A stretch of DNA of 64,000 bases from Bacteroidaceae bacterium. Its GTDB lineage: Bacteria > Bacteroidota > Bacteroidia > Bacteroidales > Bacteroidaceae. A program made the position numbers and the translations under genes. The stretch is from contig JAKSJB010000002.1 in the NCBI GenBank assembly GCA_024398475.1, positions 1-64,000 of the forward strand, in the 5' to 3' direction. Below the pieces are notes generated by a model. It did not search any database and was not told the origin of the DNA. It worked only from the letters and a program-made list of their open reading frames with translations. How positions within the stretch are numbered: the first letter of the stretch is position 1; every line of letters begins with the position of its first letter. Positions 6,039 through 22,254 of this stretch are shown here, one piece after another.

Positions 6039-7817
6039 ATGTACAGAACTCACACGTGCGGACAACTCCGCATTTCAGATGCCGGCTCTACAGTCACTTT
6101 GGCTGGATGGGTGCAGCGCACACGCAAGATGGGAGGTATGACTTTCGTTGACCTCCGCGACCGTTACGGTATTACTCAGTTAGTGTTCAACGAGGAACAG
6201 AATGCTGCTCTTTGTGCAGAGGCCAACAAACTCGGAAGGGAATATGTGATTCAGGTGACCGGTGTGGTGAACGAACGTTACAGCAAGAACGCCAACATGC
6301 CTACGGGTGACATAGAAATCATCGTAAGCGAACTGAACGTGCTCAACATGAGCGATACTCCTCCTTTCACTATTGAGGATAACTCGGACGGTGGTGATGA
6401 CCTTCGCATGAAGTACCGCTATCTGGATATACGCCGCAACCCGGTGCGCGAAAACCTTGAACTGCGCCACCGTATGTGTATTGAGGTGAGAAACTATCTC
6501 AGCAACCTCGGTTTTCTTGAGATTGAAACTCCGGTGCTCATCGGTTCTACTCCTGAGGGTGCACGCGACTTTGTGGTGCCTTCACGCATGAACCCCGGTC
6601 AGTTCTATGCTCTGCCTCAGTCGCCTCAGACGCTGAAGCAGTTGCTCATGGTGGCTGGTATTGACCGCTACTTCCAGATTGCTAAGTGTTTCCGCGACGA
6701 GGACCTGCGTGCTGACCGTCAGCCTGAATTTACTCAGATTGACTGCGAGATGTCGTTCGTGACTCAGGAGGACATCATTCAGACTTTCGAGGGTATGGCA
6801 AAGCACCTGTTCAAGGCTCTGCGCGGCGTGGATCTTACGGGTCCGTTCCTCCGTCTGCCTTGGCGCGAGGCTATGCGCCGGTTCGGAAGCGACAAGCCTG
6901 ACATGCGTTTCGGTATGGAATTCGTGGAACTGAAGAACGAGGACGGCAGCGAGAACTTCTTTGCCGACAAGGCTGGGTTTGCCGTATTCGACGAGGCTCA
7001 GTATGTGGGCGGTATCGTGGCTCCGGACTGTGCTGTCTATACCCGCAAGCAGATTGACCAACTCACAGAGTTCGTGAAGCGTCCTCAGGTGGGTGCAAAG
7101 GGTCTGGTTTATGCACGTGTTCAGGAGGACGGCAGCGTGAAGTCGAGCGTGGACAAGTTCTATACTCCAGAACAACTCGTGGAGATGAAGGAGAAGATGG
7201 GTGCCAAACCTGGTGACCTCATTCTCATCATTTCGGGTCCTGACGCCATGAAGGCACGCAAGCAACTCTGCGAACTACGTCTGGAAATGGCTGAACGACT
7301 GGGATTGCGCGACAAGAACAAGTTTGCGTTGCTCTGGGTTACTGAATTTCCTATGTTTGAATGGAGTGACGAGGAAAACCGACTGATGGCTATGCACCAT
7401 CCGTTCACTCATCCTATGGACGAGGATATCCCTATGCTCGATACTAATCCTGAGGCTGTACGTGCCGATGCCTACGACATGGTGTGCAACGGTATTGAAG
7501 TGGGCGGAGGTTCAATCCGTATCCACGACCCTAAACTGCAGGCCAAGATGTTTGAAATCCTTGGTTTTACTCCGGAAAAGGCTCAGGAGCAGTTTGGCTT
7601 CCTGATGAATGCTTTCAAGTTCGGTGCGCCTCCTCACGGCGGTCTTGCCTACGGTCTTGACAGATGGGTTAGTATCTTTGCAGGTCTTGACTCTATTCGC
7701 GACTGCATTGCTTTCCCTAAGAACAACTCGGGACGTGACGTGATGCTCGATGCTCCTTCATGTATCGACCAGAAGCAACTTGACGAACTTGAACTGGTGG
7801 TGAAGGTGAAGAACTGA
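6039..7817 (+). CDS. aspS: Aspartyl-tRNA synthetase
   Basis: This class II synthetase charges tRNA-Asp with aspartate in the cytoplasm. The 592-residue length is normal for the bacterial form with its inserted GAD domain. The N-terminal anticodon-binding OB-fold is visible ([20 protein letters not shown]). The catalytic core follows with [14 protein letters not shown], the motif 2 region [19 protein letters not shown], and the motif 3 region [10 protein letters not shown] near the end. I chose the ATG that starts MYRTHTCG because it matches the family N-terminus; 31 in-frame codons upstream lack homology and overlap the promoter. yidC follows 55 bases later. Confidence 0.97.
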
Positions 7818-16178: not shown

Positions 16179-16208
16179 TTTGCCTGTCAAATATTTTGCT
16201 TACCTTTG
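16179..16208 (+). promoter_or_regulatory. Promoter of the B12-uptake operon
   Basis: TTTG at 16179-16182 and TACCTTTG at 16201-16208 are separated by 18 bases, a good fit to the Bacteroidales -33/-7 arrangement. Transcription would begin close to the first base-paired arm of the aptamer (16214), which supports both calls. Confidence 0.7.
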
Positions 16209-16213
16209 CAGCC

Positions 16214-16385
16214 GTTATCGGTTTCCAAGCGAATCTTTCGCAAGGAATAATATGGAATCCGGTGAGAATCCGGAACAGTACCTGCTGCTGTAAGTTCCTA
16301 TTAATAGTCATTATATAATGTCACTGTTTTCTTTGGAAAATGGGAAGGCATAATGACCGGAACAAGTCAGAAAACATGCCGTAAC
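16214..16385 (+). promoter_or_regulatory. Adenosylcobalamin riboswitch aptamer
   Basis: The conserved core of the cobalamin aptamer is readable in order: GGAATCCGGTGAGAATCCGG, CTGCTGCTGTAA, TCACTG, TGGGAAGGC, and the B12 box AAGTCAGAAAACATGCC at 16364-16380. GTTATCGG (16214-16221) can pair with CCGTAAC (16379-16385), with one bulge, to close the P1 helix. The downstream gene is a BtuB-like receptor, the expected target. Ligand binding should repress the operon. Confidence 0.92.
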
Positions 16386-16509
16386 AAAGTTAATATTTTG
16401 TCGAACCTGCAGGATCATGGGTTTATGGCATATCTTTTCTGCGCAAGCATGTCTTTCGTACTTATTCCGACTTTACTTCTGTCGGCTGAACGACGCTAAA
16501 GATTATAGA

Positions 16510-16558
16510 TACCATTCATACCATACCGAAAGGTTCAAGTATGAATGGTAATTTTTTT
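16510..16558 (+). terminator. Riboswitch expression platform (intrinsic terminator)
   Basis: TACCATTCATAC (16510-16521) and GTATGAATGGTA (16539-16550) form a perfect 12-pair stem, with an inner ACC-GAAA-GGT hairpin in the loop, directly followed by seven T residues (16552-16558). It lies between the aptamer and the receptor gene, so it is the likely attenuator that stops transcription when cobalamin is bound. One possible start codon of the receptor (16541) sits inside its 3' arm. Confidence 0.85.
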
Positions 16559-16561
16559 GTA

Positions 16562-18562
16562 ATGCGATTGACAGGATTATTGATTGCGGAATTACTTCTT
16601 ATTATACCATCATTATTGTGCGATGCTGCTTCTTTTAATGCAACTGCTATCCGCAATGATTATTATGGTATAGCAGAGGACTCGGTCAGAGGTATTGCTG
16701 ATTCGACTCATCACATTGATGAAGTTGTTGTTACTGCGACTCGTAAAGTGGCGCTGGCTACTGCACAGACGTTGAGCGGAAAGGTACTGCAGGGACTTTC
16801 ATCCACATCGGTGGCTGATGCGCTGAAATACTTTGCAGGTGTACAGATTAAGGATTATGGGGGGCTTGGTGGACTCAAGACCATCAACGTACGCTCCCTA
16901 GGTGCTCAGCATGTTGGGGTGTTTCTGGACGGAGTACGTATCACAAATGCACAAAACGGTACGGTTGACCTCGGTAAATATTCCCTGTCTACCCTTGAAG
17001 CCATTTCCCTTTATAATGCCAATAAACTGGACAACTGCCAGAGTGCGTCCGAGTATGCTTCCGGGGCTACTGTCTATATGAATACACGTAAACCTGTAAG
17101 TGACTCGCTTTCTTTACAGGCAAGGATTGCTTCCTTCCACACATACGGAGGTAAGCTAAATGCACAGTTCTGCCGTAAAGGATGGTCGGGTTTCATTGAT
17201 GGTGAGTATCTTGACTCCAAGAGTGATTATCCTTTTAGGTACAAATCGCAGTATGAGGACACAGTCGGAGTAAGGGCCAATTCCGACATCCGGTATTATC
17301 GCATCGAAGGAGCATTGTTCCACAATGATTTCTCTTCACATATCTATTATTATGTTTCTGAACGCGGATGCCCTGGTGGTGTTGTGCGCCGACTGTCTGA
17401 CAAATACGACAATGTTGGGCGCGAATGGGATCGTGATTTCTTTGTACAGGCATCCTACGACCATACGTTTTCCAGTTTTCACCGCATTAAGGCTACAGGT
17501 AAATATACGCATGAATATCTGCGGTACTGCACCGACTATCCTGAGAACCAAAATACCGCTAAGGTAAACAACCACTACTGGCAGGACGATGTCTACGCTG
17601 CCCTATCGTACAACATCAACCCATACAGGTGGTTGGGAGTGACCGTAGGGTATGATGTCCGTTACTCAAAACTCGATGCCGACCTCAAGGCATTCAAGGG
17701 GGTTGAGCGTACTGACCAAAAGGCGGTGGCTTCGCTGATGCTGTCGTGGAAGGGATTCAATGCTGCCGTCTCTGAACTTTTCCAACACTACAAGGATCAT
17801 ACCTGGACGAACGTGGGTGCGGCCAAACCATTGCAGAAATTCACTCCAACGGTTTCGCTTGCCTACTCCCACGGCAACCTTACCGGACGCATCTGGTACA
17901 AGAAGATTTTCCGCGCTCCGACTCTCAATGACCTTTATTACACTCAGGCAGGAAACAGAAACCTGAAACCTGAATATACGAAACAATGGAATGTGGGTGT
18001 AGAATATCATCTGAACCCAAGGAATTGGAATCTGTCGGCTCAGGTTGACTTGTATGAGAACAGGATTACTGACAGAATTGTATGTCTGCCAATGAAGGGT
18101 ACTTATACGTGGTCGATGCTCAACTACGGCTACACTTTCTGTCAAGGCATGAATGCCAACATCTCTGCCAAATGGAAGCATGGGGAACGGTTTGCTTCAT
18201 TCGTTACTTCTTTCACGCTGCAGGATGACCGCAACCGTACAAACCCAGACGACCCCGACACCTACAATCAGCCAATATGTTATTCTCCACGGTTCTCCTG
18301 CGGCATTACGGCATCAGCGGGATGGAGGTGGCTTACCCTCACGATTTCTGACCTGCATGTCAGCAAGCGCATGTGGTCGTATGCCGACACGGAAGATATG
18401 CTCAAGCCATACGACAATATCGACATAAAGCTCAATGCCACATTTGCCCATATTGGTTTCACACTTGAAATGCTTGATGCGCTCGATGAGCAGTACGAGA
18501 TGATTCAGCGATACCCAATGCCAGGACGGAACTATAAATTCACACTTACTTATTCATTATAA
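16562..18562 (+). CDS. btuB: TonB-dependent cobalamin receptor, BtuB-like
   Basis: This outer-membrane barrel takes up a ligand using TonB energy. The plug begins with the TonB-box-like IDEVVVTATRK and contains VADALKYFAGVQIKDYGG and VGVFLDGVRITNAQNG; the rest is barrel, ending in a beta-strand with aromatic spacing (YKFTLTYSL). I start at the ATG of MRLTGLLIAELLLIIP, which gives a clean signal peptide. An ATG 21 bases upstream lies inside the attenuator stem and would encode part of the U-run (NGNFFV). Cobalamin as ligand is inferred from the riboswitch. The beta-propeller gene follows after 25 bases. Its length of 666 residues is normal for BtuB relatives. Confidence 0.87.
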   Translation: MRLTGLLIAELLLIIPSLLCDAASFNATAIRNDYYGIAEDSVRGIADSTHHIDEVVVTATRKVALATAQTLSGKVLQGLSSTSVADALKYFAGVQIKDYGGLGGLKTINVRSLGAQHVGVFLDGVRITNAQNGTVDLGKYSLSTLEAISLYNANKLDNCQSASEYASGATVYMNTRKPVSDSLSLQARIASFHTYGGKLNAQFCRKGWSGFIDGEYLDSKSDYPFRYKSQYEDTVGVRANSDIRYYRIEGALFHNDFSSHIYYYVSERGCPGGVVRRLSDKYDNVGREWDRDFFVQASYDHTFSSFHRIKATGKYTHEYLRYCTDYPENQNTAKVNNHYWQDDVYAALSYNINPYRWLGVTVGYDVRYSKLDADLKAFKGVERTDQKAVASLMLSWKGFNAAVSELFQHYKDHTWTNVGAAKPLQKFTPTVSLAYSHGNLTGRIWYKKIFRAPTLNDLYYTQAGNRNLKPEYTKQWNVGVEYHLNPRNWNLSAQVDLYENRITDRIVCLPMKGTYTWSMLNYGYTFCQGMNANISAKWKHGERFASFVTSFTLQDDRNRTNPDDPDTYNQPICYSPRFSCGITASAGWRWLTLTISDLHVSKRMWSYADTEDMLKPYDNIDIKLNATFAHIGFTLEMLDALDEQYEMIQRYPMPGRNYKFTLTYSL

Positions 18563-18587
18563 GTGGGTTCAATAAACATACATTTTT

Positions 18588-19850
18588 ATGAAACATTTTA
18601 TCACAGGATTCATTTTGTGCTTCTGCACACTATTGTGTAAAGGGCAGGAACGCCTGATTATCCTCAACGAAGGTAACTGGCAATCAAACAATGCGCGTAT
18701 CAGCTATTTCGAAGATGGAGTGGTTGTATCGAACAAGTGGTTTGAAGAGAAAAACGGCTACGGTATCGGTGACACGCCCAACGACATAATACAGGTTGGG
18801 CCTAACCTCATCGCCATTGCCATAAACTGGTCGAACATCATCCAGTACATCACCACCGAAGGCATTGCTGTTGCTGCAACGGAAGATGTTCCGAACAACC
18901 GCAAACTTGCTACTGACGGGAAGTATCTCTACATCACATCATATGCCCATGAATGTCTGACCGTCAATGGCTTTTGGAGTTGTGAGAAGGGGTTTGTGGC
19001 TAAAATAAATCTCGAGACGTTCAAGGTGGAGCAATGCTGCGAAGTGGGATGGGAACCTGAGGGCATCGCTTATTATGGCGGCTTCCTGTTCATCGCAAAT
19101 ACCGGCGGCTATGCTTTTCAGGAAGATCATGACTACGAAACCACGGTTAGTATCGTTGACGCTTCGACCATGAAGGAAGTCAGGACAATCGATACGGGGG
19201 TCATCAACCTTTACGGCAAGATGTCGCAGTCTGGGCAGTACCTATGTATCAATTCACCAGGCGACTACTACGACGTTCCAGCCAAGTCCATCATATTTGA
19301 CTGTGAGAAAGCACTTACTTCCGACAATTGCTTCTTCGTCATCGACAAACCAGCCACATACAACTGTACTGACCGCGAAGGCAGGTTTTTCGCCATTGGT
19401 TCGTCGTTCAGCTACTACACATACGAATACCAGTTCAACACTATGACCATTGACCCACGAGTGCTGTTTGCATCTGACGGTGCAGAAGGCATCAGTTATA
19501 CTCTTCCGGGAACTGTGGCTGATGACATCCGCACCAAACTATCCTCCCCTTACGGCATCTATGTCAATCCGTACAGTGGCTACATCTATGCTACCGATGC
19601 CAACGGCGACTTCAATTCTCCGGGACGGCTGCACCAGTGGACTCCGACGGGTGAATACATCGACAATTACAAGATATACATCAATCCTGCCCATTTCCTT
19701 GCCTTGGGCAATTGGGTGCCTGCAACAGTGGATAACATTGCACACCCTGCCACCCGTAACACTTGTTCGTTCAATCTTCAGGGTATTGCCATAGGACAAG
19801 GCTGCAAGGGTGTCATCCTTTCCGGAGGTAAAAAGTATTTACGAAATTAA
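18588..19850 (+). CDS. BtuG-like beta-propeller surface protein
   Basis: The 420-residue protein carries repeated propeller-type blades and opens with LIILNEGNW and GIGDTPNDI, the pattern of the DUF5074/YncE-like family. In Bacteroides thetaiotaomicron, BtuG, a seven-bladed propeller encoded next to btuB, binds cobalamin very tightly at the cell surface. Position and riboswitch control make this the equivalent candidate. The signal region (MKHFITGFILCFCTLLCKGQ) has cysteines, but LLCK is not a standard lipobox because Leu stands where Gly or Ala is expected. Cleavage near KGQ by signal peptidase I is more likely, so membrane anchoring is unclear. Whether it binds cobamide is inference. Confidence 0.72.
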   Translation: MKHFITGFILCFCTLLCKGQERLIILNEGNWQSNNARISYFEDGVVVSNKWFEEKNGYGIGDTPNDIIQVGPNLIAIAINWSNIIQYITTEGIAVAATEDVPNNRKLATDGKYLYITSYAHECLTVNGFWSCEKGFVAKINLETFKVEQCCEVGWEPEGIAYYGGFLFIANTGGYAFQEDHDYETTVSIVDASTMKEVRTIDTGVINLYGKMSQSGQYLCINSPGDYYDVPAKSIIFDCEKALTSDNCFFVIDKPATYNCTDREGRFFAIGSSFSYYTYEYQFNTMTIDPRVLFASDGAEGISYTLPGTVADDIRTKLSSPYGIYVNPYSGYIYATDANGDFNSPGRLHQWTPTGEYIDNYKIYINPAHFLALGNWVPATVDNIAHPATRNTCSFNLQGIAIGQGCKGVILSGGKKYLRN

Positions 19851-19896
19851 TCACATATAATTTATTCATTCATTAATTATTAATTATTAATCATTT

Positions 19897-22155
19897 ATGA
19901 AAAGACAGATTCTTATTTTCAGCGTCCTGATGATGACATTGTGCAGCCATGCCGTAAATGTCTCCATTAAGATGAACTCAGTCTCAACCTCCATTATTCT
20001 GGTTGAGAAGTCAACAAACGACACTATCAATGTGGATGCACCCGACCAGTCGTTCACATATCAGCTCGACCTTAAGCCTGCAACCTACACACTGACAGGT
20101 GTCAACAAGGATGGTGCAACTCTTCAAGGTACAATTGAACTGACTGTTACCGATGAAGCCGAACAGTCGTTCATCATCTGGACAGTACAGTCAATCAAGG
20201 CTACCAACTCGGGGTGGGTGTATGGCGAAGACTACACCATCGAAGAACTCAGTTGCCGTACACGCGAAGGAAAGACTATCCCTGTCACATTGGGCGACGG
20301 TACTGCACCCGGCACAAAAGCTTGCCTTATCCTCAACGGAGGAAGTTTCAACTGCACACTCCGTCCTTCAGCCGCACACCAGGCTGAAGGCTATGTCGAT
20401 GCATACGCAAGCGCTACTGTGACTGGCAACACCAGCAGTTCCTCGGCCATTCCTATGAGCGGCATGTTCACTGTTGATTTCCCTGCCGATGCCCACTGCA
20501 TGGTATTCCGCAAACTCGGAGGTACACTCGGTTCTGGTTCCATTCACTATGTGCCGTTCGTCTCCATCACACCAACCGATTCTGTATCAGGCAAAGAGAC
20601 ATTCCGACTGGCAGAAGGCGGCACATACAGTTACCGTCTGTGGAAAGAGGGCAAACGCACCAAAGCCGGCACATTCGTGTTTTATCAGGGCTCAGCATAC
20701 GATGGCAAGATATGGGATGAAACTTGTGATGGATTCAGTCATATAACCTTCACGGATGACGACCTCAGTGAAAGCAGCAAATACTTCAATCACAGCACAG
20801 CCGACAACAACAAGTCAAACGTGGCAAATATCCTGCTCAACATCAACGAGCGTGGTCATCTGCGTATGAAGTCAGGACAGACAAAGAACTTGCTGGCACA
20901 GCGTGACTGGCAGCTCACCAATTCGCAGACAGCCAACTACTTCATCGAACCTGATTACCACTACACCGTACTCGATATGGACGGTAATCCAGGATGTGAC
21001 ATAATCAGCATTGACAATGCCAACACTTCCATCAGCCCTTGGGCCACGCTCCATGCCAACAAGGCTGGTTCTGCAATAGTTCTCGTCAGTTACGATGCCA
21101 TGCACCTCACACAATGGGCACGCAGCGGAAGCGGCAATGATAAAAAGCCATACACGATGAAGGAAAGCGATTTCTGCTTCGGTGCCGACTGGAGTGCCTG
21201 CTGGGGAGAGAATACAGGTGTGTTTGTAGTGACTGTTGATGACAGCGAAACGGCGGTTCAGCCAAACATGACAATCAACGAGGCATACAACGCCGAAACC
21301 ATGAAGAATGCTGGCAAGTATGTGGATGCAGAACACGACTGCTTCTATTATCTTAATGGCGAGGATGGTTATCACTACACATTTGCTCCCGTTGACGCTG
21401 CATCCGTGGAAATTGCCTATCCTCAACTTACCGACGTCACGGCTTCATACAGTGGATTCACCCCAGTAGAGGTGAATGCCGACGGCACATATACACTGAT
21501 ACTGAAACACGGCCGTCAGATAGTACGAATCACAGGCAACGACGGAGGCATCGCCTATCAGGTACTTACAGCAAAGGAGTGCACACGTACCATCAGCAAC
21601 CTGACCCACGATGACGGGAAGTTCTATCCTGGCGACGAAATAGCAATACAGTACGACGGACTTTTCCACCCAGCCAACAAAATGTCTGGCATATACAACA
21701 TGAGTGCCTACATCACCTACAATGGTGTGCCTACAGGAACGGAACTCATACTCGGATCCAATCAGTATGCCTTTGGCGGTACTCCAAAGGCTCAGTGTGT
21801 AAAGACAACGATCCCTGACACTTGGGAACCTGGAACGCCATTCGTCCTGAATGATGGTGTAATTCAAGTCACGGGATTCGGTGACCCAATCGGCAATCAC
21901 CGTTTTATTGATAAGGTTGCAGGACGAAGCCCTAACTTCACAGCAATCGCTCACAAGACCTATTTCGGTGCAATTCCAGATATAAACATAGAAATCTCCG
22001 AACCCGACGAAACCGTTTCCATAACTCTGCCATGTAGCAATACATCGGGAACTATACACTACGACCTCATGGGTCGCCACACTTCAGACAGGAGCAAAGG
22101 CATACATGTCATCAGAATGCAAGATGGCAGTTTAAGAAAGGTTCTCATCAAATAA
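19897..22155 (+). CDS. Large secreted protein of B12 operon, unknown
   Basis: I do not recognise this 752-residue protein. It has a signal peptide (cleavage near SHA, residue 19) and a long, beta-rich, Thr/Ser/Asn/Gly-rich body without visible enzyme motifs. Its last 35 residues (YDLMGRHTSDRSKGIHVIRM and the lysine-containing end KVLIK) resemble the C-terminal sorting tail of type IX secretion substrates. Residues 75-320 may hold two or three Ig-like domains (for example TFRLAEGGTYSYRLWKEG), and MTINEAYNAETM begins a second half. It is the last gene of the riboswitch-controlled operon, 46 bases after the propeller gene, and a terminator follows. A role in binding or presenting cobamide at the surface is plausible but inferred only from context. 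Confidence 0.7.
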   Translation: MKRQILIFSVLMMTLCSHAVNVSIKMNSVSTSIILVEKSTNDTINVDAPDQSFTYQLDLKPATYTLTGVNKDGATLQGTIELTVTDEAEQSFIIWTVQSIKATNSGWVYGEDYTIEELSCRTREGKTIPVTLGDGTAPGTKACLILNGGSFNCTLRPSAAHQAEGYVDAYASATVTGNTSSSSAIPMSGMFTVDFPADAHCMVFRKLGGTLGSGSIHYVPFVSITPTDSVSGKETFRLAEGGTYSYRLWKEGKRTKAGTFVFYQGSAYDGKIWDETCDGFSHITFTDDDLSESSKYFNHSTADNNKSNVANILLNINERGHLRMKSGQTKNLLAQRDWQLTNSQTANYFIEPDYHYTVLDMDGNPGCDIISIDNANTSISPWATLHANKAGSAIVLVSYDAMHLTQWARSGSGNDKKPYTMKESDFCFGADWSACWGENTGVFVVTVDDSETAVQPNMTINEAYNAETMKNAGKYVDAEHDCFYYLNGEDGYHYTFAPVDAASVEIAYPQLTDVTASYSGFTPVEVNADGTYTLILKHGRQIVRITGNDGGIAYQVLTAKECTRTISNLTHDDGKFYPGDEIAIQYDGLFHPANKMSGIYNMSAYITYNGVPTGTELILGSNQYAFGGTPKAQCVKTTIPDTWEPGTPFVLNDGVIQVTGFGDPIGNHRFIDKVAGRSPNFTAIAHKTYFGAIPDINIEISEPDETVSITLPCSNTSGTIHYDLMGRHTSDRSKGIHVIRMQDGSLRKVLIK

Positions 22156-22195
22156 GTTATCTTTATAAGCCAAATAATAATTAGTTTGAAAGAGG

Positions 22196-22226
22196 AAAGG
22201 GGTGTGCCGTGATGGCACGCCCCTTT
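22196..22226 (+). terminator. Terminator between B12 operon and valS
   Basis: AAAGGGGTGTGCC and GGCACGCCCCTTT form a 13-pair stem (one G-T pair) with the five-base loop GTGAT. It lies between two convergent genes, 40 bases after the last gene of the B12 operon and about 30 bases beyond the valS stop. Both sides have only short U-runs, so it probably acts in both directions. Confidence 0.8.
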
Positions 22227-22254
22227 CTGCTTATTTCGTAATGAAACGATTGAT

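Follow-up and report, generated by a model that had tools for sequence, protein, structure and literature searches.

Competition for vitamin B12 shapes gut communities, and BtuG, BtuH and BtuJ have each revealed another way of holding B12 at the cell surface. In the window, i.e., the whole 64,000-nucleotide stretch of Bacteroidaceae DNA that was analyzed, a cobalamin riboswitch was followed by a BtuB-like gene, a BtuG-like gene and a third gene that closes the operon, which raised the question of what this last gene product contributes. The sequence-only reading of the locus had described a promoter, riboswitch and terminator ahead of three genes and a final terminator, and had proposed that an unrecognised third member forms a third layer of cobamide capture. 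The source genome (2.27 Mb, 79.6% complete) was close to Candidatus Equicola faecalis.

The layout proved to be real, with both terminators and the gene order confirmed (Table 1). The aptamer matched the full RF00174 model (positions 1–189 of 189) with 89.5 bits against a gathering score of 31.5 bits, and this match, the sole Rfam match within the window, was confirmed by a genome-wide scan. A comparison with the related Equicola locus L009 showed that the −7 box of the putative promoter was kept; sigma-70 promoter scans of the region were at chance level and uninformative. The hairpin of the riboswitch terminator (about −20.7 kcal/mol) was near-identical in L009, whereas the sequence immediately 5' of the terminator diverged. 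The 3' arm of this hairpin (16510–16550) overlaps the first ATG, at 16541, so that btuB may instead be translated from the ATG at 16562. Judging from this anatomy and from Bacteroides reporters, plentiful intracellular cobamide would allow the riboswitch to permit the terminator and thereby turn the operon off, and scarce cobamide would allow the operon to be transcribed. The three same-strand genes were separated by only 25 (btuB/btuG) and 46 (btuG/third gene) bases. In L009, a group II intron RNA match (RF02001, 6374–6552) was located directly behind the operon.

Table 1. Positions of the features in the window and of the second BtuB-BtuG locus of the source genome
Feature	Position	Strand	Remarks
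Putative Bacteroidetes-type promoter	16179-16208	+	TTTG 16179-16182; −7 box TACCTTTG 16201-16208; consensus match only
Cobalamin riboswitch aptamer (RF00174)	16202-16397	+	89.5 bits, E 8.2e-21
Riboswitch intrinsic terminator	16510-16558	+	12-bp stem 16510-16521/16539-16550, seven-T run 16552-16558
BtuB-like gene	16541-18562	+	673 aa; start possibly 16562
BtuG-like propeller gene	18588-19850	+	420 aa
Third gene	19897-22155	+	752 aa; final gene in operon
Operon intrinsic terminator	22194-22228	+	16 pairs, about −34 kcal/mol
Second BtuB-BtuG locus	G000 contig C23, 46.5-50.0 kb (L091 2466-5762)	−	own riboswitch

The first protein had TonB plug and barrel domains in Pfam, and its best solved relative was the B12 transporter BtuB1 of Bacteroides thetaiotaomicron (8blw_A, E 9e-78). 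The second protein, whose gene adjoins btuB, matched solved BtuG structures (8ptd/8blw_B) with an E value of 1e-15; the propeller recognized by the sequence-only reading was thus upheld, but its DUF5074 label was not, being merely a sub-threshold Pfam match (E 0.015). No lipobox was matched in this propeller, which had a type IX-like C-terminal tail instead, and because of the missing lipobox we named it BtuG-like rather than BtuG. BtuB would serve as the TonB-dependent outer-membrane transporter, and BtuG as its cobamide-binding lid. The same genome contained a second cobalamin riboswitch, which headed a two-gene BtuB-BtuG locus without the third gene, and the BtuG of that locus had a lipobox. 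At most of the Prevotella-group loci L058–L086, BtuG-like propellers had type IX-like tails and no lipobox, and the lipobox was retained in the BtuG of the more distant loci L013, L016, L074 and L081. Together, the RF00174, BtuB1 and BtuG matches supported the earlier proposal that the three genes form a riboswitch-controlled cobamide (vitamin B12) uptake unit, here of a Candidatus Equicola-like member of the Bacteroidales. One 900-aa frame of the genome had a B12-binding domain above the Pfam cut-off, which implied at least one likely cobamide-dependent enzyme in need of supply.

The third protein consisted of a signal peptide, an N-terminal beta domain, an Ig-like core (about residues 184–704) and a type IX-like tail. 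Nothing in Pfam or NCBIfam matched it above the cut-off, and searches of the PDB with the single sequence and with a profile gave no convincing relative. Matches of DUF4988, LIC10280 and MORN to the propeller or the third protein were weak or below curated cut-offs and were discarded. AlphaFold2 models of middling confidence (pLDDT 69 for the whole protein and 72 for residues 184–704) showed a succession of Ig-like beta domains. When folds were searched with the whole model and with the 184–704 segment, all matches were generic (Ig-like, S-layer or adhesin folds, Z < 8); no known cobamide-binding fold was among them, a result that excludes nothing. In the core, mean column identity was 59% among 10 sequences from several families, and 97 positions were kept in at least 95% of 42 family sequences. 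The conservation peaked at approximately residues 430–700, where the motifs DAExD, YQVxTAK, HPxxK and GxHR were found, as would be expected of a surface binding a ligand or a protein.

The type IX-like tail ascribed to this protein was plausible. The tails of five orthologs (L013–L017) were above the cut-off of Por_Secre_tail, but the tail of the window protein itself scored below the type IX tail models of Pfam and NCBIfam. The T9SS translocon component SprA was encoded in the source genome (E 9e-216). Besides the third protein, a profile of the tail matched BtuG and roughly 20 further ORFs in this genome (E at most 1e-3); a tail common to so many unrelated proteins speaks for export only. 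The third protein would be exported by its signal peptide and then very probably by the type IX system, like the BtuG-like protein of the window, and is therefore likely to be located at the cell surface.

Among the genomes of the same family-level group, 35 of 399 gave family matches, and among those of the order, 7 of 393; the source genome is included in both counts, as are a few matches that were partial or restricted to the tail. In a phylum-wide sample of 395 genomes, the family occurred in the source genome only. Profile matches in G010, G415, G428 and G589 covered positions 704–751, i.e., the tail alone, and did not represent family members. Nine further loci, belonging to horse, rumen, termite and other Bacteroidales, were obtained by scanning GTDB contigs, with the host sources taken from record titles and isolate names, and the searches as sampled found the family in Bacteroidales only. 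Because of its rarity even in its own family-level group, the third family is not considered essential to BtuBG function. No description of the family was found in the literature searched, from which subscription papers were mostly out of reach.

Where the family occurred, it was tied to B12 genes. At 43 of the 45 family loci, a btuB, btuG, btuH-domain or DUF4465 gene was directly upstream of the third gene or fused to it, and of the 32 loci at which 4.5 kb or more of upstream DNA was available, 31 had a same-strand cobalamin riboswitch and 30 had btuB. At the surveyed loci, the third gene closed the run of B12 genes. These 45 loci are related by descent and do not represent independent events, but several families and deep branches of the tree are covered by them. 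The homologs were thus found mostly together with btuB and cobalamin riboswitches and not away from them, as the proposal of a third member of the unit implied. At locus L016, a second riboswitch and a second btuB started right after the third gene (6963–7597), an arrangement that suggests tandem cobamide operons. In a report on the B12 transcriptome of Xylanibacter ruminicola, two of four riboswitches were not upstream of genes annotated as cobalamin-transport- or synthesis-like (PMC11575231).

The association extended to protein fusion. DUF4465, the BtuJ domain, belongs to a family experimentally shown to bind B12 (PMC12751083; PMC13398666), and at 28 of the 45 loci it was fused to the third-family core or encoded by the gene directly upstream, in up to three copies. 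Locus L006 (G011) contained, in order, a riboswitch, BtuB, BtuG, a BtuH-domain protein of 363 aa (8blw_B, E 7e-49; 7biz, E 1e-24) and a protein of 1494 aa, the first 700 residues of which were third family and the C-terminus of which was DUF4465 (E 3e-35). In the fused DUF4465, the stretch INSTNY resembles the described MNTPSY binding loop at the level of sequence. DUF4465 was present on both sides of the core within one protein in L083 (8267–12241, two copies) and L085 (8342–13039, three copies), and L078 had three copies behind the core. Upstream of BtuG, L010 (398–6841) encoded a protein of 2147 aa in which DUF4465 and BNR-associated N-terminal domains were present. Other long forms carried GLUG-like regions or Listeria-Bacteroides repeats. 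Matches of the BtuHc profile to the C-termini of long forms were to the common sorting tail only, not to a B12-binding domain. The proteins of the window and L009 were short forms that ended after the core, without DUF4465, and DUF4465 was not found anywhere in the source genome at its 79.6% completeness. In the tree, these two were nested among long forms, which makes it probable that an ancestor of both had lost the extension.

From the riboswitch, the BtuB1 and BtuG matches, the linkage at 45 loci, the DUF4465 fusions and the conserved core, we concluded, with a probability of roughly 0.8, that the third protein is a T9SS-exported accessory of cobamide capture that is expressed with BtuB and BtuG under B12 shortage. 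Gene order, regulatory element, conserved association and DUF4465 fusion were observed; a surface location, binding and a direct role in capture are inferred. The short forms without DUF4465, the absence of a match to a B12-binding fold, the rarity of the family and the two-gene BtuB-BtuG locus of the same genome count against the conclusion. In most relatives, the core would act as a carrier or platform for the B12-binding DUF4465, present either in the same protein or as the product of a neighbouring gene; in the window and in Equicola, it would act without DUF4465, most likely by binding cobamide or by docking to BtuB-BtuG and handing the ligand over. We tentatively consider that the core, of 520 residues, is a T9SS-exported cobamide-binding module of its own, unrelated in sequence to BtuG, BtuH and BtuJ, which replaced the lost BtuH and DUF4465 layers in Equicola; the odds are against this stronger form.

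Rather unlikely is the explanation that the core is a mere scaffold or spacer presenting DUF4465, the BtuH domain or BtuG, and that the window copy is a degenerate leftover with little function of its own. Strings of Ig-like domains are common spacers, the window operon has neither DUF4465 nor BtuH-domain genes, and the nesting of the window and L009 proteins among long forms points to a probable loss of the extension. However, the conserved part of the family is the core and not the extension, the window and L009 proteins were both intact and 93% identical over their full length without signs of decay, and in the short forms from termite gut, too, the core persists as a protein of its own next to DUF4465. 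A different task within the same regulon, such as the release of surface material or vesicles without contact to cobamide, is improbable. Its model is B. thetaiotaomicron BtuL (BT_1955), a protein without cobalamin binding that causes vesicles to be released early (PMC12751083). At 696–735 aa, BtuL is similar in size to the third protein and is likewise a large accessory of a riboswitch-controlled btu operon. Identity with BtuL was rejected, since the hhalign probability against Bacteroides proteins at the BtuL position was 2.8%, and BtuL is a lipoprotein encoded between btuG and btuH, whereas the third protein has a type IX-like tail, is encoded last and is often fused to a B12-binding domain. 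Although Ig-like multidomain folds weakly resemble adhesins and SusE-like glycan binders, a passenger surface protein of this kind lying merely behind the operon is hardly credible, given that the linkage holds across several families with highly diverged cores (43 of 45 loci) and that the core is also fused directly to DUF4465.

The third protein is thus very probably an overlooked part of B12 capture in Bacteroidales, and its family, absent from the libraries used, is nevertheless tied to cobamide operons of gut, rumen and termite Bacteroidales. If the core binds cobamide, it would represent one more binding module; a platform role would explain how lid and traps are assembled without lipid anchors in type IX exporters. 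A further layer of capture as such is not new, since BtuH, BtuJ and BtuK are already known beyond BtuB and BtuG in Bacteroides. What was borne out is the unrecognised third member, a conserved family without a name in Pfam or NCBIfam which, as far as sequence comparison goes, is not BtuH, BtuJ or BtuL.

Among these, BtuH (7biz, PMC8941943) is likewise an accessory in btuB operons and is a surface protein, and in several relatives a gene for the BtuH C-terminal domain was located between btuG and the third gene; the third protein had no sequence match to BtuH (7biz), and that of the window matched its own profile only. Cobamide operon 1 of B. thetaiotaomicron (BtuB1-BtuGH-BtuJ1) shares the cobalamin riboswitch, the BtuB1-type receptor and the BtuG propeller with the window, and the BtuH domain and DUF4465 with the relatives of the window; the window operon differs in having neither of the latter two, and the third family was absent from the Bacteroides loci inspected. 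Bacteroides BtuG is a lipoprotein, whereas the BtuG-like protein of the window lacks a lipobox and has a T9SS-like tail at its C-terminus. BtuJ/DUF4465 (IPR027828, PF14717) differs from the third family, the core of which is not PF14717, and Pfam assigned no PF14717 to the window protein; BtuJ/DUF4465 proteins are often targeted to the T9SS, as is also likely for the third family.
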